From Lachnospiraceae bacterium (GTDB lineage: Bacteria > Bacillota > Clostridia > Lachnospirales > Lachnospiraceae), in NCBI GenBank assembly GCA_017551165.1, contig JAFZMO010000106.1:1-59825 (forward strand): DNA of 59,825 bases. Reading direction: 5' to 3'. A program made the translations under genes and the position numbers. This document shows, one piece after another, positions 5,126-56,498 of the stretch; position 1 is the stretch's first letter, and each line of letters begins with the position of its first letter. Under the pieces are notes generated by a model that saw only the letters and a program-made list of their open reading frames with translations, was not told the DNA's origin and searched no databases.

Positions 5126-5171
5126 GGCTTCCTCCTTTCTCTGCCCCCCGGCAGGTATCGATGATCGGATG

Positions 5172-6395: not shown

Positions 6396-6434
6396 CGCGT
6401 CGCTGCCTCTCTACCCTGCAAAGCGGTCGCTCCG

Positions 6435-16946: not shown

Positions 16947-17255
16947 ATAACACCTCACATAAAATTGATTATTTAATCCCCCGTGCGTATCGGTTCCCCC
17001 AAACGTCGAGAGTAAGATTCTTGTCAAAAAGGTAACAAAAACACATATAGGCCTATGCGCCCAATCGTTGATGATGCCACAGCAGGCCTTGTTTTGCAAG
17101 CACTTTTTTCGATTTTTGACGTAAAATACGCAGAATTTACAAACTTTTTATAAACGAACGCAAAAAACGCCGTTTCGGATCAACCGAAACGGCAGCAATT
17201 CTACAAAACCGTCAATTTTGGCGGGCATTTTCCGATGAAAAGAACAGCAAAACTC
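16947..17255. other. Intergenic region between the adhesin and the two-component operon
   Basis: This 309-base gap holds the terminator of the response-regulator operon (17162-17193) and the upstream region of the adhesin gene. TTGCAA and TTGACA boxes are visible on the minus strand, but no convincing -10 box is spaced correctly behind them. A copy of CATTTTCCG lies at 17226. I see no gene here. Confidence 0.6.
17162..17193 (-). terminator. Terminator of the VanW-ligase-kinase operon
   Basis: On the minus strand GCCGTTTCGG pairs perfectly with CCGAAACGGC around TTGAT, followed by GTTTTTTG. It lies about 60 bases after the response regulator stop. Confidence 0.9.
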
Positions 17256-40100: not shown

Positions 40101-43100
40101 AGATATACCATTCGATGGTGTAGTCATTCGGCCGGTAATTAGCGAGCGCCTCAGGAACAAAATTCATCACCTTCTGGTTCTGAAGGAGCCAGTCGTATCT
40201 CAGGTTGAGGAAGTATCCCTTCTGGGCATTCGATTCAAAGGATGCACGACTTACACCGTCGTTGTAAACAACCTCATTCGTCTCCGGATCAACCGCGATC
40301 CACAGCGAGACGATATCCTGTTTCTTAAAGTATACGCGGATCACGGTATCGCTGCCGCGCATCGTAAAACATGTTCTTCCGCTCTGGTTGGCAACCGCCG
40401 CCTCATTGTCGTCGTGGTATTTCCAGAACAGATTGTAGTAGTACGTGTGCTTCGCCTGCGCCAGCTTCAGCTGTTGGGATGTCTCCTTGCGCTTCTTATC
40501 ATTTGCCTCGGACATATCCATCATATAGTTGTTGTAAGCAGTGTGGTCGCGCGCTTTCGCAGCCTCCAACTCGTTGATCGCCTCGGTATACAGTTTGTTG
40601 AGCTCCTCCTCATCCGGGAATCCGAGGTAGAGCAACGTGTAGCCCGGGAACGTATTGTTGCAGAATTCCGGAGTGATGTCCACGAAACAGCAAATCCCGT
40701 CATAGCCGGAAACCGAACCGTTGCCGGCCAACTCAAAGTCGCGGGTATCCTCGCCGTCGTTGTAGTTCTTCTGCAGGAAGTATTCCACTCTCGCGCTCTG
40801 CATCGTTCCCTTCCAGTGAACGTAAACCGTGCGCTCGAACACCTCGGTATTGAAACCGAACGCGTGATTCTTAAACTTGAATACAACCTTGCCGTAAACC
40901 TCGTCCTTCGTTCCGTCGATCGGACAAACGTAAATCTCGTTTGTTCCCGGAAGATACTGGAAGGAGGATGCACCGGGAACTACCGTGCCGTTCTTACCGG
41001 TGAGATCATAGCATTCCACGGTAAAGTTATCCTCATGGTTCTGCGTCCAGGAACGCTCCGTGCTGACGACAAGTCCGTTGGTCTCCTCGGTGTCAACAAC
41101 GTTGAGGATCGTCGCCGTATACTTCACGGCACCTTCGGTACAAACATGCTTGGAGTCCATGTTCTTCTCGACGACCTTACCGCTCTTCAGAACCATCAGC
41201 TTCATGTTGAAGATCGAGTCGTCGATCTTCACGGTATTCTGTCCGTTCGGGATCTCCACGCTCAACTTCGGATCGCTCTGTTTGATCACGAAATCCAAAG
41301 GGAATTGCTCACAACCGAGCTTTAGCAGCGGTGTTTTCGTAGAGTACAGACTCCAGCTCTTGGACGCCATTCCTCCGCCGATCTGCACCTTCACGCTGAT
41401 ATCCGTGTAGATGCCCATCTCGAAGTACAGGGATCCGCTCGCGCCGTGCTTAGCGGGCTCACCGCCCTTCTTCTCGTAATATACGTACAGGAAGCCGTAC
41501 AGCTCAGCGTACACGCCGGCCTGTGCAACAACACCGACCGAATCCAGGTCCGTGCTGAAGATACCGACGCGCAGGTCGAGGCTGACGCCCGCCTTGAGTC
41601 CGACCATACCGAATGCATAGAAGTCGGCGCGGAACGAGTTCGCAAGATCCTTCACGTCGGAACCCGACGGAGCGGAACCGACCGCATTGGCATCGTACTC
41701 GGGACCGCCGCCCCAGATCTTGGCGCGGAACGCGTAGGAATACCGCTTTGCATTCTCATAGCTCACGCCGGCACCGATCATGGCGTTGATCTTCAGCTGG
41801 ACGCTGAAGTTGATCTTCATACCGACATGGATGATACCGGTCGGATCGATCGGGATGTCGAAGCTTCCCAGATCCACATCGACCAGTTTGATGTACTGCG
41901 AATCGTTGGAGAGCATGTTCGAGTACTTGGTCGGGAGATCCCCGCCGATTCCCGGCGAGTTGAACTCCTGCTTGCCTTTCTCAGTGTCACCGTCTCCGGT
42001 CATCGGGACTGTGACGCCGTAGCCCTGGCCTTTTTCCTTCTGCTTCTTGGACTGCCTCTCGAGGAAGTCACCGCCCTTGATCAGCGCCTTCGCTGCCTTC
42101 TGACGGGCCTCGAGAGAACTCATGTCGCCGTTGTCGATGAAACCGCCGACCATCTCCGCAAAATCCTTGCCGGCATTCGCGTTCGGAGCCGCCTCCGTCT
42201 TCGCCGTCACCGTTACGCCGAAACCGGTATAGGTACCGGCATCCAGCGCTGCCGTGATATCAAGGCTCGAGGTGAGACCTAACTTGTTCTTGTGGCGCTT
42301 CACCTGAACGGAGGGCGTCAGCATGATCTCCTGCTCCAGCACGATCGCCGGCTGAATAACCAGGAATCCGGCATCGCCGAGCTTGATCTTGATGGTAAAT
42401 GTCACGGCCGCCTCGCCGCGCAGACCCTTCTTGCCCGCAAAATGGCTGAGCTTGTAATCGAGGGTGAGTGCAAAATTGATGTCGCTGACCTCAACCTTGG
42501 AGGCGCCATCCGCCAGGTAGCGGATCTGATCCAGCGTCAGGTCCTCCCCGTCGGTCTTAAACTTCATGTTCTTCAGTTCTTCGCCGTGCTCCAGCGAATC
42601 GAAATCGATGTCATCGCCCGCGATGATGGTCATGAACAGATCTTTCGTCTCATCGACGATACCGCTGTCGGCGATCTGCTTCCGCATGTCCTCCTCGAGC
42701 TTCTTGGCATCGACGTCGGACATCTGGATCTCCACCTCGGGAAGCGTGGCCGCCAGCGCGACCTCGGACTCCGTGAGCTCCTCCTCGGACACAACCGTGT
42801 AGGCAAATGTCGTCGTCTTGTTCTCACTGTTCTCGGTGATCTTGGTGATCCGACCGTGTCCGGTCAACTTGAAATCCGAACCGCCGAGCTTGCCCGTGAA
42901 GAATGCAAGGTAATCGCCGACCTTGATCTTCGTCGTCCCGTCCAGTCCGTATTCCTGATATGCCTTGCCATCAAACTTCAGATTGCTGTTCGCAACCGTG
43001 ATGGCCCCGTCGCCGACGGAGCCGTCATCCGGCACCGGGATGATGTTGTCCGAAGCCAGGATCTCATCCAGTCCGGCGTACTCATATCCGTAGGAACCTC

Positions 43101-44550
43101 CCGTCTTCACGGAGGTGATCTTCACATACGCGACATCGCTGTTCGTCAGACCGTTCGCGTCGTAGGTTCCCTTGTGAACGGCAACCACGCTGCCGACTCC
43201 GAACTTCTCGCTGCCCTTGTAGGTCATGATGCCGGAACCGGTATTTTCCGTAGCCTGGAGGTTGCCCTCGTCATCATTTTCCAAATTCAGAACACCGCGG
43301 AACTCCACGCCGGTCACGTCGTCCGCGGACACATGGATCACGCGTTCATCCACCTGAATATCGGCAACCTCGACCAGCTCGATCGTAAAGTTGTACTCGA
43401 CAACCTCGTTGCCGGTCACAGCGCCGTCATACACAAAGCGGAGCTTCGATGTGTCTGAGATACCGACGGAGTACAGGAAACCGCCCTCCCACTCATCGTC
43501 GTAAGAAGTGATGATCCAGTGGTCGCCGCGCACCGTCTTCTCGCTGTAGAGAATATCCTCAAGGATCCTCACCTGATCTACGGTGAGCTTGAATTCCTCG
43601 CGCCATACGCGCTCCAGACTGTCGTCCTCGCTGAGGCCGTAGCGTGCCAGGAGTTCTTCCTCCGTCACGGTCGCAAAATCGATATCGAGCGTCCTAAGCA
43701 TCTCCAGCGCCTCATCGCTGAGATCCAGGAACTGCTTCTCATCCTCGGATACATAGTTTTCCAGGCTGAGATGGTTCCAGACCATGTTCGCCTCGTCCTC
43801 CGAGAGCTTGATCATCGGATCGCCCGTGTTCTTCGTCAATCCGTAGATCATATCCCTCAGGCTGACCTCTTCGCCCTCGCCCGCGCTCTCGCTCTTCTCA
43901 ACACAGGCCCAGACAGCCTGTGCGGTCTTCCAGTTCAAGCCGGCCGACTTCAGCCATGTGATCTCTTCCTCTTCGCGCAGGGATCTCAGGTTGAACGGAA
44001 CTGCTACACCCGCACGACCCGAGTTGATCACGGAGACCGCCCTCAGGACTTCGTCCTTGGTCAGGCCGTACGAAACCAGCTCAACCGCGTACGTTCCCGG
44101 GACCTTGGTCTTCGCGACATAGTTGTATCCCTTGACACCATCCGAACCCGCCGTGGGGGAGAACTGCGGATACAGCGTGATGTCATCCGTGATCTCATCC
44201 TCTTTGTTCGCACGCTTTGTTCCGGCAGCGTCATACGTCCACGCAAGGAACATGGAGCTGTATCTGGTCGGTACCGCGAGCTCACTGATCTTGGTTCCCT
44301 TCGGAACCAAGGTGGTCTGCGGCATCTCCGTATTCCGGCGATCCAGCTCGGACACCGTCGGCGGAAGCTCAAAATTGACGGTGAAAGGACCCGTCTTCAG
44401 ATGCTCCCCTGCCTCCTCCGTCGGAGTCGGGGTCGTTGTTCCGGTGGGATTGTTTTTGTTCTTATGCAGCGCTATATACAGCACGACGCCGGCTACAACA
44501 GCGACAAGCACTGCAGAAGCTGCAATGATCCAAGTGCGCTTTGATTTCAT
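37108..44550 (-). CDS. Giant membrane-anchored repeat protein with Cys-pair repeats
   Basis: The 2480-residue product has an N-terminal membrane anchor (about 8-28) and a Pro/Thr-rich linker (about 33-46). InlB-like beta repeats follow (about 52-138), then a long central region of mixed beta and charged segments without a family I recognise (150-1550), and more InlB-like repeats (about 1570-1740). The C-terminal third (about 1745-2320) carries ten repeats of the pattern H-x-W ... x-TC-xx-G ... C-xx-C-G/D. No sortase motif is present, so anchoring is by the N-terminal helix. Its ATG overlaps the protease stop by four bases. Surface structure or adhesion is inferred. Confidence 0.82.
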   Translation of the reverse strand: MKSKRTWIIAASAVLVAVVAGVVLYIALHKNKNNPTGTTTPTPTEEAGEHLKTGPFTVNFELPPTVSELDRRNTEMPQTTLVPKGTKISELAVPTRYSSMFLAWTYDAAGTKRANKEDEITDDITLYPQFSPTAGSDGVKGYNYVAKTKVPGTYAVELVSYGLTKDEVLRAVSVINSGRAGVAVPFNLRSLREEEEITWLKSAGLNWKTAQAVWACVEKSESAGEGEEVSLRDMIYGLTKNTGDPMIKLSEDEANMVWNHLSLENYVSEDEKQFLDLSDEALEMLRTLDIDFATVTEEELLARYGLSEDDSLERVWREEFKLTVDQVRILEDILYSEKTVRGDHWIITSYDDEWEGGFLYSVGISDTSKLRFVYDGAVTGNEVVEYNFTIELVEVADIQVDERVIHVSADDVTGVEFRGVLNLENDDEGNLQATENTGSGIMTYKGSEKFGVGSVVAVHKGTYDANGLTNSDVAYVKITSVKTGGSYGYEYAGLDEILASDNIIPVPDDGSVGDGAITVANSNLKFDGKAYQEYGLDGTTKIKVGDYLAFFTGKLGGSDFKLTGHGRITKITENSENKTTTFAYTVVSEEELTESEVALAATLPEVEIQMSDVDAKKLEEDMRKQIADSGIVDETKDLFMTIIAGDDIDFDSLEHGEELKNMKFKTDGEDLTLDQIRYLADGASKVEVSDINFALTLDYKLSHFAGKKGLRGEAAVTFTIKIKLGDAGFLVIQPAIVLEQEIMLTPSVQVKRHKNKLGLTSSLDITAALDAGTYTGFGVTVTAKTEAAPNANAGKDFAEMVGGFIDNGDMSSLEARQKAAKALIKGGDFLERQSKKQKEKGQGYGVTVPMTGDGDTEKGKQEFNSPGIGGDLPTKYSNMLSNDSQYIKLVDVDLGSFDIPIDPTGIIHVGMKINFSVQLKINAMIGAGVSYENAKRYSYAFRAKIWGGGPEYDANAVGSAPSGSDVKDLANSFRADFYAFGMVGLKAGVSLDLRVGIFSTDLDSVGVVAQAGVYAELYGFLYVYYEKKGGEPAKHGASGSLYFEMGIYTDISVKVQIGGGMASKSWSLYSTKTPLLKLGCEQFPLDFVIKQSDPKLSVEIPNGQNTVKIDDSIFNMKLMVLKSGKVVEKNMDSKHVCTEGAVKYTATILNVVDTEETNGLVVSTERSWTQNHEDNFTVECYDLTGKNGTVVPGASSFQYLPGTNEIYVCPIDGTKDEVYGKVVFKFKNHAFGFNTEVFERTVYVHWKGTMQSARVEYFLQKNYNDGEDTRDFELAGNGSVSGYDGICCFVDITPEFCNNTFPGYTLLYLGFPDEEELNKLYTEAINELEAAKARDHTAYNNYMMDMSEANDKKRKETSQQLKLAQAKHTYYYNLFWKYHDDNEAAVANQSGRTCFTMRGSDTVIRVYFKKQDIVSLWIAVDPETNEVVYNDGVSRASFESNAQKGYFLNLRYDWLLQNQKVMNFVPEALANYRPNDYTIEWYIYPCPMGEISYKQARQVNLCYAAYDAVQMVREKDFSKLTKVTEDTLVNNINNVVIGVLTGKEVPIHWMDGDTEIATTTGRFADRVTFETTAPQKSGCVFAQWETKDGTPITAETMVTGELYAYARYLGEERTVNWITEDGATVQTRVRVNDGIYQSVPKELAVEGYTWIWRTSKDDPKTELLPGALWPDEDNITLYGRKSIGFSSITWIYDDKERKTFCEIGTVPVRPELPADGDLDLVWKFEDGTVMQSNFIMPRNSVTVKAFRHKHEWSDETGIVPATCRSAGHQGAVCTVCGLIAEGTEIPIDPKAHVWDEYVITPATCIDKGVMGRHCMYCDAVDETYKKPIDIDPYNHTGNTEIRNAKEPCCVEGYTGDTYCVDCDSMVMAGYALEPTYNKHGTVHLEGYVESTCQSWGYSGDYFCDDCGFRVCYGHTLPLSAHVGEEDKSKEVKATCTTPGKIVWKCIHCDYTWEVDLGINDAAHTWDEGTEISKQTCTTDGVIRYTCKECGATEEVVQKATGEHDWQIESKTDATCEKDGLVVYKCSMCGDTKEEILESSGAHEWTKWELIQQPTCTKPGIRRYTCKLCGETKDEETEIDPNAHGKLSDPEIVTEPGCETRGQQRRQCPDCKEYFYEDLPPVGHEWGEPTYSWSSDCSSVTATVTCIRDKTHTVTETVKTTAKVTKKATLDAMGETTYTAEFKNSAFKTQTKTLENVEKLSPDWKEPTYSWSKDYSSVTAKRVSRVDSSVVEEETVATTSNKTKDASCDSDGEIVYTAVFNNAAFGTQTKKVTIDKLGHDWVLKSTEKPGPVYVTDSDGDEACRDWKAGNKHYECSHCGAGKDEKIKVSVGVQNGVGEDIGQLDGTTKITIDLGKLINTDYTNDTFNGFFTEMESLRTFGQLVDCWVIPTPYTEDTKGWYYYWVTFTEDEELRNMKLRQYGELEGTIKFSDKDKSYKDMKVVDYTGTSLTINVTFTPKYTDTFETVTFTVTFKLPAPDQRS

Positions 44551-45440
44551 TGTGCATCACCCTCCAATTCCTCTTTCATCCGGTTATAGATCAATGTGAT
44601 CGGAACCGCGACATTCAGGTTCTGTCCTTCGTCGTAGGTTCCGCTGACCATGCCGATCACTTCACCGCGGCTGTTCAGCAGCGGACCGCCGCTGCTTCCG
44701 CTCGACACCGGCGATGTAAACAAATATCTCATCGTAGTATCATTGCTCCAGATACCGCACAGGTTTCCGACGGTGACCATGTTCACCACGCCGAACTGGC
44801 TTCCGATCGCAACCGTCTTGGCACCTCTCGCAAGATTGACTGTCATCATTTTCAGCGGCTCGATCTCCGGATCCTTGGCGAAGCGGCAGATCGCAAAATC
44901 ATTCTCGCTGTCCCCCATGAGGACATCGCGGATCTCAAGCGTCGCGCCGTAGTCTGTCGTTGCGATCATGTGATCCATGTTGGCGATCACATGGTACGCC
45001 GTGACAACATACTTACTGTCATAGAAGACAAATCCGCTTCCCGTGCCGATGCGGGCACCGCTCGCGTCATAGACTTCGAGCTTCAGGACCGAGGACGCTG
45101 TGGCCTCAATCTGCCACGGCATGTCGATCCACTCCTTCTCAACCTCCGGAACCGGATCCACGATCGGACCGCCGGGCTTTCCCACAGCTCCCGTGGGTGC
45201 GTACGTATCCGGGGTCGGTGTCGCCGCCTCCGCGGTCGGGGAACCCGCCCCGGGAGTAACCGTCGCCCCCGGGGTTGCAAGCCTTCTTCCCGGCAGGAAA
45301 ATGATCACGCAGATCAGCGCCGTCAAGAGCGCCGCAGACAAGCTGCTCAGGGCTACGACCCTGCGGTGGTACCGCTCGTTCCGGATCATGCTGCCCCTCC
45401 GGACGATCTTCTCAATTGCTTCGTCGGTTGAATACTTCAT
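44547..45440 (-). CDS. Membrane-anchored trypsin-like serine protease (HtrA-like)
   Basis: I start at 45440 (GGGAGG upstream), giving 297 residues. A short cytoplasmic segment (1-27, with DEAIEKIVRRGSMIRNERY), one helix (about 29-50) and a Pro/Thr-rich linker lead to a chymotrypsin-fold domain. The triad is visible: His in TAYHVI (about 148), Asp in ENDFAIC (about 183) and Ser in GSSGGPL (about 250). No PDZ domain follows, unlike full HtrA. Translation is coupled to the giant protein by an ATGA overlap, so that protein may be a substrate or partner. Confidence 0.9.
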   Translation of the reverse strand: MKYSTDEAIEKIVRRGSMIRNERYHRRVVALSSLSAALLTALICVIIFLPGRRLATPGATVTPGAGSPTAEAATPTPDTYAPTGAVGKPGGPIVDPVPEVEKEWIDMPWQIEATASSVLKLEVYDASGARIGTGSGFVFYDSKYVVTAYHVIANMDHMIATTDYGATLEIRDVLMGDSENDFAICRFAKDPEIEPLKMMTVNLARGAKTVAIGSQFGVVNMVTVGNLCGIWSNDTTMRYLFTSPVSSGSSGGPLLNSRGEVIGMVSGTYDEGQNLNVAVPITLIYNRMKEELEGDAQ

Positions 45441-45581
45441 GGATTTTCCTCCCGTAAAAAAGCTGTATTTGAAACACTTTCTAACCCTTTGTTGCAGTTT
45501 CCCGCCGATTTTCCCACCGGATTTTGGAAATTTTTGAGAATTTTCCGAAAAACTTTTCTTCGGAAAATGTTCCGCCGCACG

Positions 45582-45612
45582 AAAAAAAACCACCCCCGCG
45601 TTTCGGGAGTGG
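45582..45612 (-). terminator. Terminator of the second ECF sigma gene
   Basis: On the minus strand CCACTCCCG pairs with CGGGGGTGG (one G-U pair) around AAACG, followed by TTTTTTTT. It lies 31 bases past the sigma factor stop and separates it from the protease operon. Confidence 0.85.
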
Positions 45613-45642: not shown

Positions 45643-46188
45643 TCAGGAGAAGCTGAAGCCCTCCTTCTCCATGATCTCCCGCAGCGCCTTCTTGCCGCGC
45701 TCCACGAGATGATAGATCTGTTTCTTGTTCTTGCCCATGACCTTCGCGGCCTCCTCGTGCGACATGCCGTCGAAATACAGGAGCATCAGCACGCGGCTGT
45801 AATCGGGATTGATCTGTGCGAGCGCCCCGTACAGCTGCCGGTTTCTCTCCTCCTCAAGGATCTGCAGGTCCGGCGTCTCGCTGCGGTCCGGCTGCTCGTC
45901 GTCGACGGGCACGAACTCAACGCGCCCCGCCTTTCGAAGATGCATCAGCGCGAGCTTCTTGCCGATGGAAAACAGCCAGGTCTTAAACGTGCTGCGCCAC
46001 ATAAAGATGGATTTGCCCGCGGAGACTTCGGCGAAGGAATCGATCATCAGTTCCTCCGCATCGGCAAGGTTGTGGACAAATCCGTTGATGAACAGGATCA
46101 GTCCGTCCCGGTGCCGCTCGAAAAGAACGCGGATGTCGGCTTCGTCCTGATATTTCAGGTAGCGATTGTACAATTCTTCATCCGTCAT
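45643..46188 (-). CDS. ECF-type RNA polymerase sigma factor (second)
   Basis: I start at 46188 (MTDEELYNRYL), where GGAG lies 6 bases upstream, giving 181 residues; an upstream ATG at 46212 has no binding site. Region 2 includes HNLADAEELMIDSFAEV and WRSTFKTWLFSIGKKLAL. Region 4 includes YSRVLMLLYFDGMSHEEAAKVMGKNKKQIYHLVERGKKAL. It lies directly upstream of the protease operon but is separated from it by a terminator. No standard anti-sigma gene is adjacent. Confidence 0.92.
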   Translation of the reverse strand: MTDEELYNRYLKYQDEADIRVLFERHRDGLILFINGFVHNLADAEELMIDSFAEVSAGKSIFMWRSTFKTWLFSIGKKLALMHLRKAGRVEFVPVDDEQPDRSETPDLQILEEERNRQLYGALAQINPDYSRVLMLLYFDGMSHEEAAKVMGKNKKQIYHLVERGKKALREIMEKEGFSFS

Positions 46189-46239
46189 ACTCGTCTCCGT
46201 CTCGCAATCCACATACTTCGGTCAGTTTCCTATACCCCA

Positions 46240-46875: not shown

Positions 46876-48348
46876 TTACAGAAGCATCCCGACGGCGTCC
46901 TTCCAGCCCTGAAGCATCGTCTCGCGCTCCTTTGCAGCAATCTGCGGGCGGAAGACGGTCTCCGCTCCGGTGCACCGCTCGATGTCCGCCTCGTCGGCCC
47001 AGAAGCCGGTCGCAAGACCTGCGAGAAATGCCGCGCCGAGCGCGGTCGTCTCCACGCACTCCGGCCGGATCACCTCGGTGTTGCTGATGTCGGCCTGCGT
47101 CTGCATCAGATAGTTGTTGTTGCTCGCGCCGCCGTCCACGCGGAGCGATGTCACCGGCTGTTGTACCTCCATTCCCATGGCAGTCACGATGTCGTTCACC
47201 TGGTAGGCGATCGAGTCGAGCGCCGCGCGGATGATGTGGTAGCGCCCCACGCCGCGCGTGAGCCCCACGATCGCGCCCTTCGCCTCCGGTTTCCAGTACG
47301 GAGCGCCGAGTCCGGTAAATGCCGGCACGATGTAGCAGCCGTTCGTATCCGCGACCTTCTGCGCCAGCTCCTCGGTCTCCGGCGCCGTGCGGACCAGGCA
47401 CAGCTCGTCGCGCAGCCACTGCACGACCGCACCGCCCATGAACACGGAGCCCTCCAGCGCGTATGTGATCTTTCCGCGGCGTCCCCAGGCGATCGTTGTC
47501 ACGAGACCGTGCTCCGACGCAACCGGCGTCTCACCGGTGTTCATCAGCAGGAAGCATCCGGTACCGTACGTATTCTTGATGTCGCCGGCGCGGAAGCACT
47601 TCTGCCCGAACAGCGCCGCCTGCTGGTCGCCGGCAGCTCCTGCGATGCGCACGTTGCCGCCGAGGTACTCCCTCGCGCACTCGCCGTACACCTCGCTGTT
47701 CGGAACAACCTGCGGCAGCATGTTCATCGGAATGCCGAGCCACTCGCAGATCTCCTCGTCCCAGCGCAGCGTGTGAATATTGAAGAGCATCGTGCGCGAC
47801 GCGTTGCTGTAGTCGGTCACGTGCCGCTGCCCCTTGGTCAGTTTCCAGATCAACCATGTCTCGACCGTGCCGAACAGAAGCCGTCCCTGCGCCGCCTTCT
47901 CCCGCGCTCCCTCGACGTGATCTAAGATCCACGCGAGTTTTGTCGCCGAAAAATAAGGGTCCAGCACCAGTCCGGTCTTCTCGCGGATCCGGTCGCGGTA
48001 TCCCGCAAGGCGCTCGCAGTAGTCCGCCGTGCGGCGGCACTGCCACACGATCGCACGGTACACCGGCAGTCCCGTCTCGCGGTCCCACACGATCGTGGTC
48101 TCGCGCTGGTTCGTGATGCCGATGGCGTCGATGTCCTTCGCGTCGATGCCGGCCTTGCTCATCGCCTCGACCGCCACGCCGAGCTGTGCGGACCACAGCT
48201 CCATCGGATCATGCTCCACCCAGCCGGGCTTCGGATAGTACTGTGTAAACTCCTTCTGCGCCACGCTCACGATCCTCGCGTTGCGATCGAACACGATCGC
48301 ACGCTCCGAGGTCGTTCCCGCGTCAAATGCCATGACATAGTTGCCCAT
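46876..48348 (-). CDS. glpK: Glycerol kinase
   Basis: Glycerol kinase converts glycerol and ATP to sn-glycerol 3-phosphate. The 490-residue product is full length and has [14 protein letters not shown] (phosphate 1), [13 protein letters not shown], the [13 protein letters not shown] segment and [14 protein letters not shown] (adenosine region). Its binding site AAGGAG overlaps the stop codon of the preceding McrB-like ATPase gene (TCGTAAGGAG) with 10 bases between the genes, so it is read as the last gene of that operon. No glpF or glpD is adjacent. Confidence 0.97.
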
Positions 48349-48358
48349 ACTCTACTCC

Positions 48359-49666
48359 TTACGAAGCGTTTCTGCGGAGACGCTCCAGAATCTCGCGGCA
48401 GGAGATCATGCCGTCCGTGCCGAAGAGACGATTAAACAGTTCCTCAAACTCATCCATCGAATAGCGGATGACGATCGGGCTCAGGCTGTCGAGCTTGCGG
48501 AGAACCTTCTTCGCGATCATGTCGTCGACCGCCTCCGCCTCGGTCCCGCCGCAGGCGATGTAGATCGGAACGTACTCCTCCATTTGCCGGCGGATACGGT
48601 TACCGTAGGTGATACGGAACTGGCGGATGAGGAAGTTGTCGAGCTCGCGGATCTTGCCGACCATCTCATCCGAGAGCCGGTACTCCGCCTTCGCGCGATT
48701 GACAAGAGCCGTAAAATGCGTGAACGAGATCTTGTCGGAGTCCACATAGTTCGGTGCGAATGTCTCCGCCTTCTTGTCGAGGTTCATGACCATCGCACGG
48801 TCGTACACCTTGTCGGAGATGGCGAACGTCGAGTCGTCGTTGTTGGCCGTTCCGATGAACCACACATTTTCCGGAATGCGGAGCATACCCTTCTCCAGCA
48901 GGAGCGGGTCGTCCGCCATCGTGTCGGACACGACCTCGAGGTAGCGGTTCGCGGGATTCAGCTCCATCTGGGAGAGGAAGTCCGCAAAATAATACTCCAC
49001 GCGCGCGATGTTCATCTCGTCGAGAACCACGACGTAGATCTCGTCGGTGTGGCGCGCCTCGTACAGCTTCTTGAGGAGCGTGCCCTCGCGGAACTTCTTC
49101 GTGAACTCGTTGAAGTAACCGATGATGTCGGAGCGCTCCTTCCACATGGGCTGCACGGAGATAACCGTGGACATGTTGGCGAGGTAGTTGCCGAACGCCG
49201 TTGCCATCGAGGTCTTACCGGTACCGGACAGACCCTGCATGACTACCAGGTGCGAAACGCCGAGCCCCGCGATGAACTTGCGGACATCCTCCTCGCTGTA
49301 GTACAGCCCGAGGTGCGAAGCAGCGTAGTCGCGGAAGTTGCGGCAGATGTCCGCGAGCGACAGCGTGTCGTTGTACACCGGCGGCTGATAGCCCGTGAAC
49401 CAGCGGTCCATCGCTACGAGCGAGTGGAAGCGGTACATCGTCTCGTCATCCTCGTCCAGGATGGGATTGCCGTTGGCGTCAACCTTGCCGGCGTTCGCGC
49501 GGGCGTCGAGCTTCTTCTCTGTGTTGACCATGACAAGCACCGTGATCACCATCGCTCCGATGCAAAGAAACAAAATGACAAAATAGATCGTGAGCGCAGC
49601 TCCCGAAGACAGAAACTGCCACAGTTTCTCAAACAGCGCTCCGAACAGTACATTTTTACCAATCAT
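48359..49666 (-). CDS. Membrane-tethered McrB-like AAA+ ATPase (second of a pair)
   Basis: The 435-residue product has an amphipathic N-terminus, one membrane helix (about 23-47), a charged linker and a C-terminal AAA+ domain. Motifs are of McrB type: Walker A QGLSGTGKTS (about 144-153), VQPMWKERSDIIGYFNEF, Walker B VVLDEMNIARVEYYFADF and sensor 1 FIGTANNDDSTFAI. Classical McrB is soluble and uses an N-terminal DNA-binding domain instead. It is closely similar to the ATPase at 53492-54856. It follows the transglutaminase gene by 28 bases, with GGGAG upstream. Confidence 0.88.
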   Translation of the reverse strand: MIGKNVLFGALFEKLWQFLSSGAALTIYFVILFLCIGAMVITVLVMVNTEKKLDARANAGKVDANGNPILDEDDETMYRFHSLVAMDRWFTGYQPPVYNDTLSLADICRNFRDYAASHLGLYYSEEDVRKFIAGLGVSHLVVMQGLSGTGKTSMATAFGNYLANMSTVISVQPMWKERSDIIGYFNEFTKKFREGTLLKKLYEARHTDEIYVVVLDEMNIARVEYYFADFLSQMELNPANRYLEVVSDTMADDPLLLEKGMLRIPENVWFIGTANNDDSTFAISDKVYDRAMVMNLDKKAETFAPNYVDSDKISFTHFTALVNRAKAEYRLSDEMVGKIRELDNFLIRQFRITYGNRIRRQMEEYVPIYIACGGTEAEAVDDMIAKKVLRKLDSLSPIVIRYSMDEFEELFNRLFGTDGMISCREILERLRRNAS

Positions 49667-49694
49667 AGTATTCTCCCGATATCGGCCTCAGCCG

Positions 49695-52334
49695 TTATTT
49701 CATTTCCAGATCCCCGTATTTGTAAGAGATGTAGTAGTTCTCGTTCACCACTTCATCGTACTTCGAGTAGATGTACACCTCGCTCGGCTCGTTCCAGACA
49801 ACCCCCTTGCTGTCCTGCCTCATCGAGAGTGTGACCTCGATGCGATCCCCGCGCGCCAGCGTTCCCTTGGAGATGAACCAGCGATCGCTCGCCAGCACGG
49901 AATCATCCTCGGTTCCCTCTCGTCCGAAGGTCGTGATCTCGATCTCACGGCGCCTGATCACGACAGATGGATTGCCGATATACACCTTGTACTGCGATGT
50001 CACATCGTTGCCGCTGCCGTCGTAGACGTGGACATCGGCCTCTCCGGTGTAGCTGCCGACCTCCGGCCCGATCTCGCCGTCAAAATAACACTCCACTTCG
50101 ATCTCGCAGTCTACGGGGAGATCATTTTTCAAGACGTACCACGGGCACATGTTCGGAGAAACCTCCTCGCCGTCGTACTCGCGCTCGTTCTTGCCGAACG
50201 TGATGATCAGATCGAATTCCTCAGGCTCAAAATTGGGATCCCCGAAGTCGAATCCGTCACCGTCAACGGTATCAAATCCGATGAGTTTTCCGCCGCCGAT
50301 GCCGAGCTCTGCCATGCCATTCGCCGCCCCGGGAGTTACCTCCACGGGGATCCAGCCGGTGCCGTCCAGGTAGATCTCGACCCAGGCGTGACCGTCCGTC
50401 GTATAGGCGGTCGACCAGCTGTTCTTCTTGCCCTTTGCGCAGACGCCGACCGCGTATCTCGCCGGCACGCCGTACGCGCGGAACATGAGTGTCGCAGCCG
50501 TCGCAAAATGCTGGCAGACGCCGCGTTTCTCCTGTGTCAGGAACCAGATGACCATATCCTGATCCCTCGGTATCGTGTAGTTGAAGCTGTAGATCGCCGC
50601 GGACGAAATGTAATTTGCGATCCCGTCGATCAGACTGTCGAGATTCCCGCTCTCTGCGACGATATCGAGTCCTGCCTCCGCTCCGAGCTGCAGCAGAACT
50701 TCCATCACATCATCCGGCACATCCAGATAATGCGCATACACATAGTCGTCGTACTCCGAGATCCACTCTTCCCGGCTCTTCGGAAAACTCATGGTCTTCT
50801 CGCTGGTCGGGACATACGTGCGGAAGATCCCGGTGCCGTCATCCGCTCCCGGTTCGTATTCCGAGACCATATAGTAGGGATAGATGTCGCTGAGCAACCG
50901 GTTGTTCCGGATCGCGATCGAGTTTTCCCTCTGATAGTCGTCCCGGAGCGCATGTCCGGTCAGGTAATCGCTCTCAGGCAGGTAGGGGTCGCTGCCCTCC
51001 GGATTGTTCCAGCTTCGTCCGTTGTACTGCTCGTACGCAGCCTCCTTGAAGTAGTACAACCGGCCTACGCTTCCGCGGAAGTTGAACAGCACCTCGCCCT
51101 TCATGGCGCTGATTCCGGAAAGCAGATCCATTCCGCTTTCGGACAGGTCAAACGACTTCTTGTCCGCACCTACGAACTTGTCCGCGTTGGTCTTCACCGT
51201 GAGCTGACCGTTCGCCATCTCTACCTCGTAACAGTAGGACACATCCCCGTACTGCTGATTGGTGATCGTGTAAGAGAAGACGTTTTTGCTGCTGCCGACC
51301 TCCGTGCGGCTTCCGTAGCAGCGCACCTCGAGCGTGTCGCCCTCCGCAATGCCGTCGCCCTTCAGTTTATACTCATCCTTCGTGAGCGGTGTTCCGTCGT
51401 ATTTCTTGCTCGCGGAGGAGCTTGTGATCTTGATCTTTCTCTTCAGGAAACTGAGCGTCACCTCGCCCACGGTGATGTGGTACATGTGCGACACGTCGTT
51501 GCCTTCCGCATCGATCACGGAAAATGTCGGTGTCACCTTGGTGGTGCCGAAGCCCTTCTGCACCGCGTCGCACACCAGGACGCCGGTGTGTCCTTCCTTC
51601 AGCTCTCCCCGCGTGATGTCATAGCCGTCGCAGCGGACTTCCTCGTTCGGATCGCCGTTGTATTTGACGGTTTGGCTCTTCGGTGAGATGAACAGCTCCA
51701 CCCGGATATCCTTGATGTTGCCCGTGTTGCTCTCGATCAGATAGCAGTTGTTCGCGCTCGATCCGTTCTCGTGCAATATGACGCATTCGCTGACCGTGTA
51801 CGGCAGATTCAGCGCGTTGGTGACGTATCCTTCCGCATCATAAGCCTGATCCAGCGTGAGCTCCGAGATGTAATCCCCGTATACAAGGCCGGACACCTGC
51901 ATATCCCCCGTCTTCACGATGTCCAGACTGACATCGCCGACGATCTCATAGTTCTTCATGGAGAGCTGCAACTTCTTCGGCGTGATCTCAAACTCATCAC
52001 GGCCGATCTCATACCGTATACCGAGGAACGAGACGCTCTCCGCTCTCACCTCGTATTTGCCGACCTTCCAGGGCACTTCCGTGGTCCAGCCACCGCTGCC
52101 GCCCTGTTCGCGGTACCAAAATTCCTTGCCGATCGCCGTCGTCTTCACGGTCGGTTTCGGGGTGTTCCCGTATTCGACCGAATCGCATCGCATCCTGGTG
52201 AGCCGGAAGCCGATGCCGAACACCACCAGCAGGATCGCCAACAGCGTCAGAATGCCGATGATCAGCGCTTTTCGGTACTTGCGAAGGAATTGGCCGAGTC
52301 GCCGTATCCTATGCTCATACTCCTCATACTTCAT
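49695..52334 (-). CDS. MBG-like repeat and transglutaminase membrane protein
   Basis: The 879-residue product has a short basic cytoplasmic segment, one helix (about 23-45) and a long extracytoplasmic part. Beta repeats of the Y-D/N-G-x-P type (VKYNGDPNE, KKYDGTPLT) come first. Then a transglutaminase-like core has Cys in GVCQHFAT (about 605), His in DGHAWVE (about 650) and Glu in WIPVEVTPG (about 665, Asp in classical enzymes), followed by further MBG-like repeats (EYDGEEV). Its ribosome binding site overlaps the stop of the previous gene. It probably cross-links or processes envelope proteins; the substrate is unknown. Confidence 0.87.
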   Translation of the reverse strand: MKYEEYEHRIRRLGQFLRKYRKALIIGILTLLAILLVVFGIGFRLTRMRCDSVEYGNTPKPTVKTTAIGKEFWYREQGGSGGWTTEVPWKVGKYEVRAESVSFLGIRYEIGRDEFEITPKKLQLSMKNYEIVGDVSLDIVKTGDMQVSGLVYGDYISELTLDQAYDAEGYVTNALNLPYTVSECVILHENGSSANNCYLIESNTGNIKDIRVELFISPKSQTVKYNGDPNEEVRCDGYDITRGELKEGHTGVLVCDAVQKGFGTTKVTPTFSVIDAEGNDVSHMYHITVGEVTLSFLKRKIKITSSSASKKYDGTPLTKDEYKLKGDGIAEGDTLEVRCYGSRTEVGSSKNVFSYTITNQQYGDVSYCYEVEMANGQLTVKTNADKFVGADKKSFDLSESGMDLLSGISAMKGEVLFNFRGSVGRLYYFKEAAYEQYNGRSWNNPEGSDPYLPESDYLTGHALRDDYQRENSIAIRNNRLLSDIYPYYMVSEYEPGADDGTGIFRTYVPTSEKTMSFPKSREEWISEYDDYVYAHYLDVPDDVMEVLLQLGAEAGLDIVAESGNLDSLIDGIANYISSAAIYSFNYTIPRDQDMVIWFLTQEKRGVCQHFATAATLMFRAYGVPARYAVGVCAKGKKNSWSTAYTTDGHAWVEIYLDGTGWIPVEVTPGAANGMAELGIGGGKLIGFDTVDGDGFDFGDPNFEPEEFDLIITFGKNEREYDGEEVSPNMCPWYVLKNDLPVDCEIEVECYFDGEIGPEVGSYTGEADVHVYDGSGNDVTSQYKVYIGNPSVVIRRREIEITTFGREGTEDDSVLASDRWFISKGTLARGDRIEVTLSMRQDSKGVVWNEPSEVYIYSKYDEVVNENYYISYKYGDLEMK

Positions 52335-52338
52335 GTGA

Positions 52339-53478
52339 TCAATCCCCCGTTATTTCGTAATACCCATAGTAATACGCAATCTGATAGCAGGTGGACACGT
52401 CCTCACTGCGTCCCTCCGCCACAATACTGATCAGCTCCGCGCGGTTGTCGCCGACCTGCGGCGTTGCGCTGTTTGCGAGCTGCTGTGTCGTCCTTACGGA
52501 CAGTTTCTCGCCCTCCGCGAGCGAGCCGTCGAGCAATTCCCAATCCTCCGTCACGGGATCGGAGCCGACCGGACGGTTAACGTCGAGCGTGCGGATCGCG
52601 ATCCGTCTCGGCTGTATGGTGAGCAGACCGGGCTCGATCTGGATCTCGTACATCTCCGTCAGTTCCTCCCCCTGCTCGCCGAAGATGTGCACCGCGACGT
52701 TGTTCGAGGCGCTTCCGACAAGCGTGATCGTTCCGACCGTCTTGCACTCCAGGCGGTGTCCGCTTCTCACCTTGCCGTACTCCAGATAGTAGTCGCTGCT
52801 GACAAGCGGTTTACCGTCATACTCCTTCGAGGCGCTGCCGGTGCGGATGCGGATCACGTCATAGCGGATCGTCAGCGTACCGTACTCGTACTCGATATCA
52901 TAATTGTCGGTGATGTCCTGATTTTCCGAATTGTAGATGTTCACCTGGAACCGGTTCTCGTAGACGCCGGGCTCCTTCTTCGACGGGAAACCGGTCGCTA
53001 CGACCGTGTTGCCGGTACCGATCCGGCTGTGGTTGTAATCGATCTCCTTGTTCTCCAGCGGAAAACCGTCGTACACCTTCGCCGAGGAATATCCCTTGAT
53101 GACGATCTTCGGCTTCATGACCTTCAGCTTGCCTGCGTCAACCTTGATCTCATATTGGTCCGAGACATCGATGTCCGAGTCGTCGAGCACGCGCACGTAC
53201 GCGATGTTCTCGCCGGTTCCGATGTCGGTCTGTTCGCCGCGGACTTCCACCTCCATGTGGTGCCCTTCCGCGAGATCGCCCTCCGCAAGATACCACTGAT
53301 TGTTCTTGAGCGGCACTCCGTTGTACTCGCGCTCCGCGCTGCCCGTCTGGATCACGAGCTTCGTCTTCCGCACGCGGAAGCTTCCGGTCGCGATGATCAT
53401 TGTCATCACGATCATCAGTCCGATCAGCGCGACGCCGATGGAGCCGACCAGGTAGATCGGCATTTTTTTCTTCTTCAT
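52339..53478 (-). CDS. Membrane-anchored MBG-like repeat protein
   Basis: The 379-residue product has a basic start (MKKKKMP), one helix (about 8-30) and about four extracytoplasmic beta repeats. Three show the pattern Y-D/N-G-x-PL (REYNGVPLK, KVYDGFPLE, KEYDGKPLV) and end in G-x-L-x-I, as in MBG-type domains. No enzymatic motif is seen. The repeats resemble those flanking the transglutaminase core encoded 4 bases downstream, so it may be a structural partner or the substrate. GGGGGAG precedes the ATG. Confidence 0.78.
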   Translation of the reverse strand: MKKKKMPIYLVGSIGVALIGLMIVMTMIIATGSFRVRKTKLVIQTGSAEREYNGVPLKNNQWYLAEGDLAEGHHMEVEVRGEQTDIGTGENIAYVRVLDDSDIDVSDQYEIKVDAGKLKVMKPKIVIKGYSSAKVYDGFPLENKEIDYNHSRIGTGNTVVATGFPSKKEPGVYENRFQVNIYNSENQDITDNYDIEYEYGTLTIRYDVIRIRTGSASKEYDGKPLVSSDYYLEYGKVRSGHRLECKTVGTITLVGSASNNVAVHIFGEQGEELTEMYEIQIEPGLLTIQPRRIAIRTLDVNRPVGSDPVTEDWELLDGSLAEGEKLSVRTTQQLANSATPQVGDNRAELISIVAEGRSEDVSTCYQIAYYYGYYEITGD

Positions 53479-53491
53479 AGCTCTCCCCCGA

Positions 53492-54856
53492 TTAACTAGC
53501 CAGCTGCCGCAAATACTGCAGATACTCGCGGCACTGAGGCATGGAATTCTCGCCGAACAACTCGTCGAGCCTGTTTGCGATCACACCGCCCGCCTTCGCC
53601 ATGACAACCGGGTTCTGCCCCTCCAGCTTGCGGAGAAGCTTCTTGACCAGGAAGTCGTCCAGCGCCTCCTCCTCGGCGCCGCCGCAGGCGATGTAGACCG
53701 ACACGTACTCCTCCATCTGCTTGCGGATGCGGTTGCCGTACGTGATGTGGTATTTTTCGATCATGAACCGGTCGAACTCCGCGACCTTCTCGCGGATGGC
53801 CGGCGACATCTGATACATCTTCTTGGCGCTGTCCACAAGCCACTGGAAGTACGAGAACGGGATGGCCGCTCCCGCGGATTCCGGCGCGATGAACGGCTGC
53901 GCCTTGCGGTCGAGGTTCATGACCATCGCGCGGTCGTACACCTTGTCGGAGATGGCAAATGTGGAGTCGTCGTTGTTGGCGGTCCCGATGAACCAGACAT
54001 TTTCCGGAAGACGGAACCGGCCGCTCTCAAACAGCTGCGGGTCCTCCGGCCACGTGTCGCTCGTCATCTCGAGATAGCGGTTCCTCGCATCGAGCTCCAT
54101 CAGGGACAGGAAGTCCGCAAAATAATACTCGACCCGGGCGATGTTCATCTCGTCGAGAACGATGACATAAATGTCGTCCGTGAACCGCGCCTCATACAGT
54201 GTCTTGAGCAGTGTGCTCTCGTTGAATTTCTTGGTGAACTCGTTGAAGTACCCGATGACGTCGGAGCGCTCCTTCCACATCGGCTGCACCGAGACGACCG
54301 TGGACCGGTTGCCGAGGTACTCGCCGATCGCCGTCGCCAGCGACGTCTTGCCGGTGCCGGACAGACCCTGCATGACCATGAGGTGCGACACGCCGAAGCC
54401 GGCGATGAACTTCCGGATGTCCTCCGGCTCATAGTACAGCTGCAGCTTCGAAGCCGCAAAATTGCGAAGGTCCTCGCACATGCGGTCGAGCGAGATCGTC
54501 GTGTTGTACACAGGCGCCGTGTGCTCCTTCATCGTGCGGTCCAGACCGACCAGCGCGCGGAAGCGAACACCCTCATCCTCGTCCTTCTTCGGACGGAACA
54601 GGATGAATCCGAACCGCTCCTTGGCGATGGTGACCGTCATCACGATCAGAACGATCGGGAGCACAAGAGCAAGCAGCAGTACGAGGTAGACGGTCTCCGA
54701 GTGGATGAACGTCCCCTTGCCGAACACTGCCGCGAGATTCTCGCTGTCGCCTGCGTTGTGGATCCCGACCAGGATAAAGATTACGCTGATCAGCGCAATG
54801 ATACCGACGACGATGAACAGTCGGTAATAGGAAAATCCCTTCTTTTTCTTCTCCAT
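53492..54856 (-). CDS. Membrane-tethered McrB-like AAA+ ATPase (first of a pair)
   Basis: I start at 54856, after GGAAGGAAG, giving 454 residues; the GTG at 54880 has no binding site. Two helices (about 13-32 and 55-76) flank a short external loop, then comes a cytoplasmic AAA+ domain: Walker A GLSGTGKT (about 164-171), VQPMWKERSDVIGYFNEF, Walker B VIVLDEMNIARVEYYFADF (about 231-250) and sensor 1 FIGTANNDDSTFAI. The DEMN-A-R-V-E-YYF signature is McrB-like, not MoxR-like. The gene begins 5 bases after the DUF2357-like gene. It probably forms a ring, alone or with the second ATPase. Confidence 0.88.
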   Translation of the reverse strand: MEKKKKGFSYYRLFIVVGIIALISVIFILVGIHNAGDSENLAAVFGKGTFIHSETVYLVLLLALVLPIVLIVMTVTIAKERFGFILFRPKKDEDEGVRFRALVGLDRTMKEHTAPVYNTTISLDRMCEDLRNFAASKLQLYYEPEDIRKFIAGFGVSHLMVMQGLSGTGKTSLATAIGEYLGNRSTVVSVQPMWKERSDVIGYFNEFTKKFNESTLLKTLYEARFTDDIYVIVLDEMNIARVEYYFADFLSLMELDARNRYLEMTSDTWPEDPQLFESGRFRLPENVWFIGTANNDDSTFAISDKVYDRAMVMNLDRKAQPFIAPESAGAAIPFSYFQWLVDSAKKMYQMSPAIREKVAEFDRFMIEKYHITYGNRIRKQMEEYVSVYIACGGAEEEALDDFLVKKLLRKLEGQNPVVMAKAGGVIANRLDELFGENSMPQCREYLQYLRQLAS

Positions 54857-54861
54857 CGATG

Positions 54862-56382
54862 TTATTCTTCCTTCCCCCACAGATATTTCTTACGGATCTT
54901 TCGCTTGGCCTTCTTCCAGTTGCGGCCGTACACGCGCTCAAACGCGGCGCGATCCTTCTCCAGCTCGAGGAATGCCTCGCGCTCCGAGTAGTCTGCGTCG
55001 GCCTTTCTGCCGATGTACTGCTCCGTCATCGCGATGACGCGGGCATTCAGTGCGCGCCGCAGATCCTGCTCCGAGGCAAGGTTGCGTGAGAGCTCCTCCA
55101 CCTGGCTCTGCAGCTTCGCCAGCTCCACGCGCGACTCCGCTGCCATGATCGAAGCCCGGCGGCTCATCTCTCCGCTGGTCTTGCGGACCTCATCGATCGT
55201 GTTGCGAAGAAGATCCTCTCGCACGGCTGCCGTCTCCGCGCTCTTCTTCCACTCCGCCGCGACGGCGAGCTCGTCCCGCAGCTTCTGCAGGTTCTCCTCG
55301 TACATGGCGGTCTCGGCGCTTAGGAGGTTCATGCACTCCTCCACCGTGACCTCCGAGCCGGACATCCTCGCACGGATGTCTGCAAGCCGCTCCTCGCGCG
55401 CCCTGCGCTCCGCCTCGCGCTTCTCTTCCTCCTCCGCGAGGTACCGCGCCTCAAGCTCCTCCGCGCAATCGCGGCCGTACTTGTAGTTTAAGTACATCGC
55501 AAACAGAGCAAGCTCGGCGATCTCGCCCTTCATCTCCTCCGGGAACGGCGTGCGCGTGTTCTCGTGGCGCGTGATCGTGAAGCCGTCGCCGGTATACGTG
55601 CTCAGGAAATCGTACAGGTCCACGACCTCCTTAAAATGCTGGTCCATGCGCAGGACGTTCGTCCTCGTGATCGGCGGCGTCACCATCGGTGAATGTGCCA
55701 CCTCCTTCATGAGCGGCATAGCTAACAGCGTGGCGATCTCCCCCGTCGCCGATTCGATCCTCGCGATCTTCTTCGCGAGCGCATCCTCGTCCTCCGTCAT
55801 ACCGCCCGTCTTGTCGGTGAGCCGAAGCTCAAACGTCAGCTTGCCGCCGGTCGCACGGATCGTCTTGTCGCAGCTCGTCGCCATCGCCTTCTCGTTCCAG
55901 GCCTGCGAGATCTTGACAAAACGGTAGTCGAGGAAATCTCTGGTGCAGCAGAGAACCATGTACAGCACGCGGTTTTCGTACACGTCGTACTTGCTCTCGT
56001 TCTCGTACACCTGAAGCTTGTCGGGCACCAGGTCCTCGCCCTCGTCGGGCACGTGGGTGATCATCTCGCTGTGTCTCGCAAGATGCTCCACGGACGAGCG
56101 CGACACCTTGCGCACGCGCTCGATCGAAGTGATGTTGCCCTCGGACTTGATAAACTGGCGGTCCTCACGGATCGCCGCCTCGAGGTGCGGGATGGCTCGC
56201 TCGATCCTCGCGATCCAGTCCTCCTCGATCGTCACATCGAAGTACACGCCGGCCAGCTTCTCGCTCTCGGTACCGGCCCGCATCAGCGCGTCGCGCAGAT
56301 GACGGATTTCCTTCGACTCGCCGAGCGCCTCATGAAAGCGCTTTGCGGCCCGATGGTACTGATCCATTACGTTGTGACTCAT
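54862..56382 (-). CDS. DUF2357-like protein with C-terminal coiled coil
   Basis: The 506-residue product is cytoplasmic, with no helix or signal. The segment YENESKYDVYENRVLYMVL (about 126-144) fits the ENR pattern that I associate with DUF2357 proteins, known partners of McrB-like ATPases. Residues about 310-470 are charged and heptad-like, consistent with a long coiled coil. The basic C-terminus is NWKKAKRKIRKKYLWGK. I see no PD-(D/E)xK nuclease motif, which many DUF2357 proteins carry at the C-terminus. GGAGGAG lies 8-9 bases before the ATG. It is the first gene of the operon. The family call is by pattern only. Confidence 0.68.
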   Translation of the reverse strand: MSHNVMDQYHRAAKRFHEALGESKEIRHLRDALMRAGTESEKLAGVYFDVTIEEDWIARIERAIPHLEAAIREDRQFIKSEGNITSIERVRKVSRSSVEHLARHSEMITHVPDEGEDLVPDKLQVYENESKYDVYENRVLYMVLCCTRDFLDYRFVKISQAWNEKAMATSCDKTIRATGGKLTFELRLTDKTGGMTEDEDALAKKIARIESATGEIATLLAMPLMKEVAHSPMVTPPITRTNVLRMDQHFKEVVDLYDFLSTYTGDGFTITRHENTRTPFPEEMKGEIAELALFAMYLNYKYGRDCAEELEARYLAEEEEKREAERRAREERLADIRARMSGSEVTVEECMNLLSAETAMYEENLQKLRDELAVAAEWKKSAETAAVREDLLRNTIDEVRKTSGEMSRRASIMAAESRVELAKLQSQVEELSRNLASEQDLRRALNARVIAMTEQYIGRKADADYSEREAFLELEKDRAAFERVYGRNWKKAKRKIRKKYLWGKEE

Positions 56383-56469: not shown

Positions 56470-56498
56470 AGTATACGTTATCGGGTGTCCGATGTCAA
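56470..56498 (-). promoter_or_regulatory. Promoter of the DUF2357-AAA-transglutaminase operon
   Basis: TTGACA (56493-56498) and TATACT (56470-56475) are exactly 17 bases apart on the minus strand, close to a perfect housekeeping promoter. The -35 box begins inside the T-rich tail of the metG terminator. Confidence 0.85.

Follow-up and report, generated by a model that had tools for sequence, protein, structure and literature searches.

Two membrane-anchored McrB-like ATPases and a DUF2357 protein encoded with exported MBG-type and transglutaminase proteins: a candidate surface-protein machine in Lachnospiraceae

We analysed a stretch of 59,825 nucleotides (the window) from a Lachnospiraceae bacterium related to bacteria of the rumen gut (assembly GCA_017551165.1, contig JAFZMO010000106.1) and found that a five-gene operon on its reverse strand unites two McrB-like ATPases carrying N-terminal membrane anchors, a DUF2357 protein and two signal-anchored proteins, one of which has a transglutaminase core. 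The same kinds of genes lie together in relatives from several lineages. With moderate confidence we propose that this operon encodes a membrane-anchored motor, built from McrB and the N-terminal part of McrC, that would serve the assembly, cross-linking or remodelling of surface proteins. The features concerned are the following.

56382-48359, reverse strand: operon of five genes in the order DUF2357, ATPase, MBG, MBG/transglutaminase, ATPase
56470..56498, reverse strand: sigma-70-type promoter-like site, TTGACA-17-TATACT, 11 of 12 matches
54862..56382, reverse strand: P0001, 506 amino acids, DUF2357 protein of the McrC N-terminal type, with a C-terminal coiled coil
53492..54856, reverse strand: P0002, 454 amino acids, membrane-anchored McrB-like AAA+ ATPase 1 (AAA_5, 8.1e-06)
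52339..53478, reverse strand: P0003, 379 amino acids, signal-anchored, MBG/YDG-type beta repeats
49695..52334, reverse strand: P0004, 879 amino acids, signal-anchored, MBG-type, transglutaminase core
48359..49666, reverse strand: P0005, 435 amino acids, membrane-anchored McrB-like AAA+ ATPase 2

All five open reading frames lie where an earlier, sequence-only reading of this DNA had placed them, separated by 5, 13, 4 and 28 bases. The consensus promoter proposed in that reading corresponds to a strong promoter-like site. This site has its end 87 bases ahead of the operon's first ATG, with a terminator-like stem (56525-56504) directly 5' of it. The scan overall gave no excess of promoter-like sites over shuffled sequences (3 vs 4.1), but the site is one of only two of 11/12 quality on both strands of the whole window.

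The two ATPases share 60% identity across a stretch of 400 residues, and their own genome contains no other match. The motifs GLSGTGKT, (I/V)VLDEMN and GTANNDDS are intact in both, behind N-terminal helices, as had been read from the letters alone (transmembrane helices at residues 14-32 and 59-77 of P0002 and 29-47 of P0005; here and below, helices were assigned by hydropathy), and an N-terminal transmembrane helix is present in all 68 ATPases scored from loci of the MBG type. Among solved structures, E. coli McrB is the top match of P0002 (1.1e-06), ahead of midasin. The NCBIfam McrB model gave 3.8e-07 for P0002 (29 bits, for an equivalog cut-off of 637) and 9.5e-06 for P0005, both far below the family cut-off, and Pfam located no modified-base specificity domain in either protein. 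The motif NNDD of the window is compatible with both NxD and NxxD: when the window sequence is aligned without gaps to E. coli McrB, its second D falls opposite the D of NxxD, and NxD alone fits 12 of the 141 ATPase rows compared, duplicate loci included (GTANNDES), and three plasmid rows (NHDE, NQDE). A MoxR identity, with ordinary DUF58 partners, had been named beforehand as the alternative, and it was rejected, AAA_3 not being among the Pfam matches of the two ATPases and a MoxR set lying separately elsewhere in the window; neither AAA_3 nor DUF58 is among the Pfam matches of any of the five operon proteins. Judged by sequence comparison, the operon ATPases are McrB-like, not MoxR.

The first gene product, suspected at the outset of being DUF2357-like, indeed matches PF09823 (DUF2357) over residues 61-165 (5.2e-06, above the cut-off). 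With a profile of 51 relatives, residues 58-266 align with proteins adjoining McrB-like ATPases on three plasmids (98.3%, 2e-14), two of these three being DUF2357 proteins by Pfam, and P0001 resembles the N-terminal part of McrC. Its C-terminal half matches coiled coils. Hydropathy gave no transmembrane helix in P0001, and none within the first 70 residues of any of the 35 DUF2357 proteins of MBG-type loci. Pfam detected no PD-(D/E)xK or other nuclease in P0001, a sequence search having less power here than a comparison of folds; with that library PDDEXK_7 (9.2e-10) was detected in a relative on a Lactococcus plasmid (L116), which is the exception, six other DUF2357 proteins from MBG, SipW and F25 loci and from plasmids having no detectable nuclease. 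Nor did a hidden nuclease come to light when the profile of 51 relatives was compared with solved structures, which yielded only coiled-coil and unrelated matches among the 60 of 63 listed. Since no nuclease was found, and the remaining conserved parts are two anchored proteins outside the cell, the output of the system would be something other than a nuclease.

Both exported products had been credited with Y-D-G-x-PL repeats. P0003 bears this out, with three Y-[DN]-G-x-P-L motifs; P0004 does so more weakly, with one strict YDGTPL and a looser YNGDP. Neither rises above the Pfam cut-off for YDG or MBG by itself, and among 19 scanned members of the P0003 family AgI_II_C2 is found in 18, MBG in 10 and YDG in 8 (E <= 0.01), with about four repeat units in an alignment judged by eye. 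The N-terminal transmembrane count is exactly one in all 23 MBG3 and 26 MBG4 proteins, and likewise in P0003 and P0004 each, and an LPxTG-like motif is missing from the final 60 residues of every complete MBG-type protein. The transglutaminase core expected in one of the two is in P0004 (Transglut_core, 7.2e-22 by Pfam; nearest solved structure 6g49, 2e-07), with triad places at Cys607, His649 and Glu665, the Cys being kept in 22 and the His in 23 of the 24 aligned relatives. The transglutaminase profile matches proteins in 26 loci, window included. In some loci the first MBG protein is replaced by single-transmembrane proteins of 564-662 amino acids with PWDxMPEDFDWNSV-like repeats (L037:14773-16467, L041:14794-16659, L043:14803-16791). 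Outside the operon, the window also encodes a protein of 2408 amino acids (9873-17099, reverse strand) with matches to MBG_2 (3.2e-18) and MBG_3 (9.7e-15).

Of the 21 further genomes in the genus, 14 were found to contain P0001, and these 14 are also the ones with P0005, which makes 15 of 22 with the window's own. Among the 14 genus loci fetched, 13 have the order ATPase-DUF2357-ATPase-MBG-MBG/transglutaminase, with the last gene cut in L108; in the fourteenth (L098) the contig begins at the DUF2357 gene. Only the window has the order DUF2357-ATPase-MBG-MBG/transglutaminase-ATPase, which is a rearrangement. More widely, the arrangement ATPase-DUF2357-ATPase, followed within two genes by a protein related to P0003 or P0004, occurs in 30 of 79 non-duplicate loci, window included, spanning several lineages, among them other Clostridia and Bacilli; one unlabelled frame lies in between in L042. 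The count becomes 32 if the F13 label alone is accepted, L046 and L052 having been removed since in both the second ATPase is followed by a cut gene with no similarity to P0003 or P0004. The relatives were the best 80 of 477 (75 loci), several of them cut by contig ends, so that the proportions given for the 79 loci should not be read as frequencies in a population; these architecture counts omit L096-L108 and L112. The genes are thus not scattered in relatives, a point on which the sequence-only reading had staked its claim in advance. In a class-wide sample the ATPase was found at 1e-40 in 12 of 243 genomes, own included, with two copies within 4 kb in two of the 12 (G000, G266), and the distances of the five operon proteins intercorrelate (Spearman 0.50-0.73, 13 genomes). 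Upstream of the operon, a glycoside hydrolase family 3 protein with an Fn3-like domain was seen in a Clostridia locus (L044:4620-8240) and an LRR_5 protein in a Bacilli-type locus (L057:8029-10011).

The history of the ATPase pair is less simple than a single event. P0005 groups with the upstream (first-gene) ATPases of relatives (support 100/100 and 100/99 in two trees), and upstream and downstream ATPases cluster by lineage, not by position. One old duplication was rejected, both for an all-upstream clade (p-AU 1.06e-38) and for an all-downstream clade (1.27e-07; 37 rows), these tests having been done after the groups were visible in an earlier tree, which weakens the p values in principle. 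There being no single old duplication, ATPase pairs were therefore kept or regained in several lineages, either by repeated duplication or by sequence exchange between copies; the pair around the DUF2357 gene is maintained both ways. A pair of paralogs with no common old duplication suggests that the two might form a mixed ring. The root of the tree depends on long plasmid branches, and the tree omits L096-L108 (loci of the same genomes under other identifiers), L112, pieces shorter than 230 amino acids, L040 (a short piece) and L056 (no Walker A). Ten loci have an additional gene, F10, ahead of the operon and just 5' of the upstream ATPase (e.g. L021:6250-7185); a profile of F10 matches the ATPases along 220 aligned columns (97.4%, 1.3e-11; control against DUF2357, 0.2%) and lacks the Walker motifs. 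No F10 was found in the window's genome (best match 0.008, to P0002).

SipW-type and F25 ATPases form one clade (100/100), and the MBG-type rows fall outside it. In 33 loci of this sister clade, taken from the genome_contigs scan and two family genomes (L110, L111) and in several cases cut by contig ends, a single ATPase lies near signal-peptidase-type genes (32 by label, and L082 by its other neighbours). Checks with NCBIfam gave SipW at 2e-31 in L075 and an archaeal-type signal peptidase I at 7.7e-18 in L072, which also encodes an EAL-domain protein (8e-57). Nearby are single-transmembrane proteins with leader sequences ending in AWF, which we take to be of the SipW/TasA type. With such neighbours, exported partners therefore recur, with a different kind of protein. 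A third context, in five Bacilli loci (L070, L086, L087, L090, L091), consists of F25, a membrane ATPase, a DUF2357 protein of 361-362 amino acids and F26, without signal-peptidase or MBG labels. None of these 38 SipW-type and F25/F26 loci has a second ATPase, and signal-peptidase and MBG-type labels occur together in none of the 79 loci. The N-terminal extension is shorter in MBG-type ATPases, because Walker A starts at a median residue of 166 there vs 230 in SipW-type loci. The SipW-type loci fit the description of CoCoPALM, given in one paragraph, as McrB-like proteins that are fused to a transmembrane segment, have McrC-type partners with a coiled coil and are linked to signal peptidases (eLife 2024, PMC11090510); in that paragraph's account the authors defer CoCoPALM to a later paper. 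An NxD motif instead of NxxD, and an FtsB-like character of the fused segment, with a coiled coil, also belong to the definition of CoCoPALM. No protein named CoCoPALM in PMC11090510 is among the rows of our ATPase tree.

The copy of the operon in the window seems to have its own history. Without the window, operon distances follow those of rpoB (Spearman 0.54-0.73, 12 genomes); with it, the values are 0.31-0.57 (13 genomes). By rpoB the window genome is nearest to G005, G011 and G020 (0.041-0.042), and the operon proteins are nearest to G013 (four) or G021 (one), genomes in which no rpoB match was found. For the DUF58 protein encoded on this contig, the five nearest genomes are those that are also nearest by rpoB. 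Transfer is likely, to judge from these comparisons, because the operon alone is discordant while DUF58 agrees with rpoB, and transfer together with rearrangement would be the simplest account. That the contig is a contaminant was judged unlikely: the bin is 7.69% contaminated, but DUF58 on the contig agrees with rpoB.

From the gene set, the families, the hydrophobic anchors, the linkage, the Walker motifs, the triad Cys and His and the lack of a detectable nuclease, all of them features of the sequence, we infer a McrBC-derived machine that would have lost nucleic-acid restriction. Two different McrB-like subunits, anchored in the membrane by their N-termini, would form a mixed ring at the cytoplasmic face. 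The DUF2357 protein would be a McrC-like stalk that enters this ring and stimulates NTP hydrolysis, with a long coiled coil where McrC carries its nuclease. The ring might then act across the membrane on, or regulate, the two signal-anchored extracytoplasmic proteins P0003 and P0004, whose task would be the assembly, cross-linking or trimming of an adhesin or surface layer. One might speculate further, and quite tentatively, that energy is coupled across the membrane: a mixed McrB-like ring, gated by a nuclease-free McrC stalk, would drive the assembly of MBG-repeat fibres and their transglutaminase-type cross-linking, with a Walker-less third subunit in related species and the SipW-type loci as a second use, for TasA-like fibres.

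Several observations weigh against a motor serving the cell surface. Adjacency of genes is no proof of joint action. McrC is absent among the matches listed for the P0001 profile against solved structures, and a hydrophobic stretch past residue 70 is present in 4 of the 35 DUF2357 proteins of MBG-type loci. The triad Cys is missing from 2 of the 24 aligned MBG4 proteins, and the third place is Asp in 4 and Glu in 20 of 24, the window being among the latter; the second transglutaminase of the window likewise has a Glu in its VEVT stretch. One Clostridia group yielded no transglutaminase core in its MBG-type proteins (genes complete in L037, L043 and L044, cut in the others), and because of this group cross-linking cannot be general across loci. 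L036 and L038 have one ATPase and no DUF2357 gene, and in L049 the upstream ATPase frame was not called. Finally, the window copy conflicts with rpoB, distant relatives of P0002 occur on 283 of 72,556 plasmid and 2 of 50,697 phage records (all below 60% identity, none covering 80%), and both ATPases match the PADLOC candidate PDC-M26A (P0002, 5.4e-46, best stretch 139-257; P0005, 7.1e-46).

These last points are also those on which a membrane-associated anti-phage system would rest, in which the ring and its DUF2357 partner would be envelope sensors of infection and the MBG and transglutaminase proteins would act as an extracytoplasmic effector or as a barrier to adsorption. Patchy presence, in 15 of 22 genus genomes and 12 of 243 in the class sample at 1e-40, is in keeping with it, as are the apparently transferred window copy and the restriction activity of McrBC relatives described in the part of PMC11090510 that deals with them. 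We nevertheless regard it as unlikely. No nuclease was detected in P0001 or in the six other DUF2357 proteins (L116 has one); at E <= 0.1 PADLOC left P0003 and P0004 without a match, and P0001 did not match PDC-M26B (the DUF2357 protein of the SipW-type locus L061 matches PDC-M26B at 0.0028); the PDC entries are candidates only; and, the window apart, operon distances track rpoB. Nor was any relative of P0002 confirmed in viral_contigs, in a scan that requires short exact peptide patterns. Three of the four plasmid loci opened have larger, soluble-looking neighbours, presumably of the sort typical of defence islands. An unverified and unannotated faecal phage scaffold (MT835511.1, L163:6001-7071) encodes an ATPase relative 33% identical over 64% of its length.

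It is also doubtful that the operon is simply one for a surface adhesin, with the ATPases and the DUF2357 protein as maturation chaperones, as is thought for MoxR, doing no mechanical work across the membrane. Such a logic is seen in the bifidobacterial PFNA cluster, as far as PMC8430577 describes it, and a MoxR-DUF58-transglutaminase set lies in the very same window; but the N-terminal helices of all 68 ATPases scored and their resemblance to McrB speak for something else, and the DUF2357 partner points to ring activation of the McrC type. That a McrBC-derived module and an unrelated pair of surface proteins are mere neighbours under one promoter seems to us very improbable. The pair of ATPase and DUF2357 protein does occur without MBG genes, in the SipW-type and F25-type loci, but the layout shared by 30 of the 79 loci in several lineages and the intercorrelated distances of the five proteins argue against chance proximity.

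The remaining features of the window that bear on the operon or lie near it are these.

46876..48348, reverse strand: glycerol-kinase-like gene, presumably so from sequence resemblance and not by family search, starting 10 bases 3' of P0005
56546-58516, reverse strand: tRNA-synthetase-like gene upstream of the operon, presumably methionyl-tRNA-synthetase-like
2579-7391, reverse strand: MoxR-DUF58-transglutaminase set (Pfam), separate from the operon
37108-44550, reverse strand: protein of 2480 amino acids with a Listeria-Bacteroides repeat and many Cys-x-x-Cys pairs
44547-45593: trypsin-like protease, beside the 2480-residue protein
45643-46212: sigma-70-family factor, likewise beside it

The glycerol-kinase-like gene may be co-transcribed with the operon, because the gap is of 10 bases and the window scan placed no terminator-like site between it and P0005. 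It is outside the conserved set: in 30 loci at the genus level, counting copies, neither this gene nor the tRNA-synthetase-like gene was found in the vicinity of the operon. The tRNA-synthetase-like gene has matches 94-95% identical in three genus genomes, and strong matches in 6 of 22, own included, with two weak ones; with this distribution it was rejected as a marker. Its neighbourhoods in five genomes contain neither the glycerol-kinase-like gene nor the operon, and no empty site was shown.

If the proposal of a surface-serving motor is true, McrBC-type machines would not be solely devoted to the restriction of nucleic acids, and a whole branch of them would work at the cell surface, which suggests the reuse there of an immune-type machine. 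The unexplored CoCoPALM branch would gain an initial point of entry for functional study; anchored transglutaminases would prove to have acquired AAA+ ATPase partners of two unrelated kinds; and lists of defence candidates such as PDC-M26 may contain systems for surface assembly.

With McrBC itself (E. coli McrB, 6hz4, 6ut6), the operon shares the AAA+ core, Walker A, a DE-type Walker B, the N-x(x)-D motif and a DUF2357 partner. In McrBC systems McrB is stimulated by the DUF2357 stalk, with which it interacts, and relatives of McrBC are restriction systems, according to the passages of PMC11090510 on these points. The use of GTP in place of ATP is a further mark of McrBC. The window ATPases differ in being membrane-anchored and in having no specificity domain that we could find, and P0001 in having a coiled coil and no PD-(D/E)xK nuclease found. 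The likeness to the candidate PDC-M26 is on one side only, M26A being matched by both ATPases and M26B unmatched by P0001. Operons of the MoxR-DUF58-transglutaminase type, exemplified in the window by a MoxR at 6435-7391 (AAA_3, 5.7e-52), a DUF58 protein at 5172-6395 (7.2e-07) and a transglutaminase (9.9e-23), are alike in combining an AAA+ ATPase, a partner protein and an anchored transglutaminase; in our operon, however, MoxR (AAA_3, AAA_lid_2) and DUF58 are replaced by the McrB-like ATPases and DUF2357. The bifidobacterial PFNA cluster comprises an AAA-ATPase, DUF58, a transglutaminase and an FN3-repeat surface protein said to act in adhesion, in the account given by PMC8430577, and has, like the window operon, a repeat-type surface protein beside an ATPase and a transglutaminase. 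By analogy, the window operon may work like the MoxR-DUF58-transglutaminase set, with unrelated motor parts.

The closest comparison is with CoCoPALM. We found no description of the five-gene set in the literature, in a search with most subscription journals outside its reach and the supplement of PMC11090510 not covered. The claim that no such system had been described nevertheless has to be given up in its general form, as CoCoPALM had already been named, though in the main text of PMC11090510 without the MBG and transglutaminase version and with no occurrence of the word "transglutaminase". As far as the single paragraph on CoCoPALM goes, the window agrees with it in the McrB-like domain, the N-terminal transmembrane segment, the DUF2357 partner with a coiled coil and the linked exported proteins. 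It differs in its second ATPase (in relatives the two flank the DUF2357 gene), in its MBG-type and transglutaminase proteins, and in an operon without a signal peptidase gene. Set against that brief description, the window's version, with its MBG-type and transglutaminase proteins, is a new form of a barely described, CoCoPALM-like kind.

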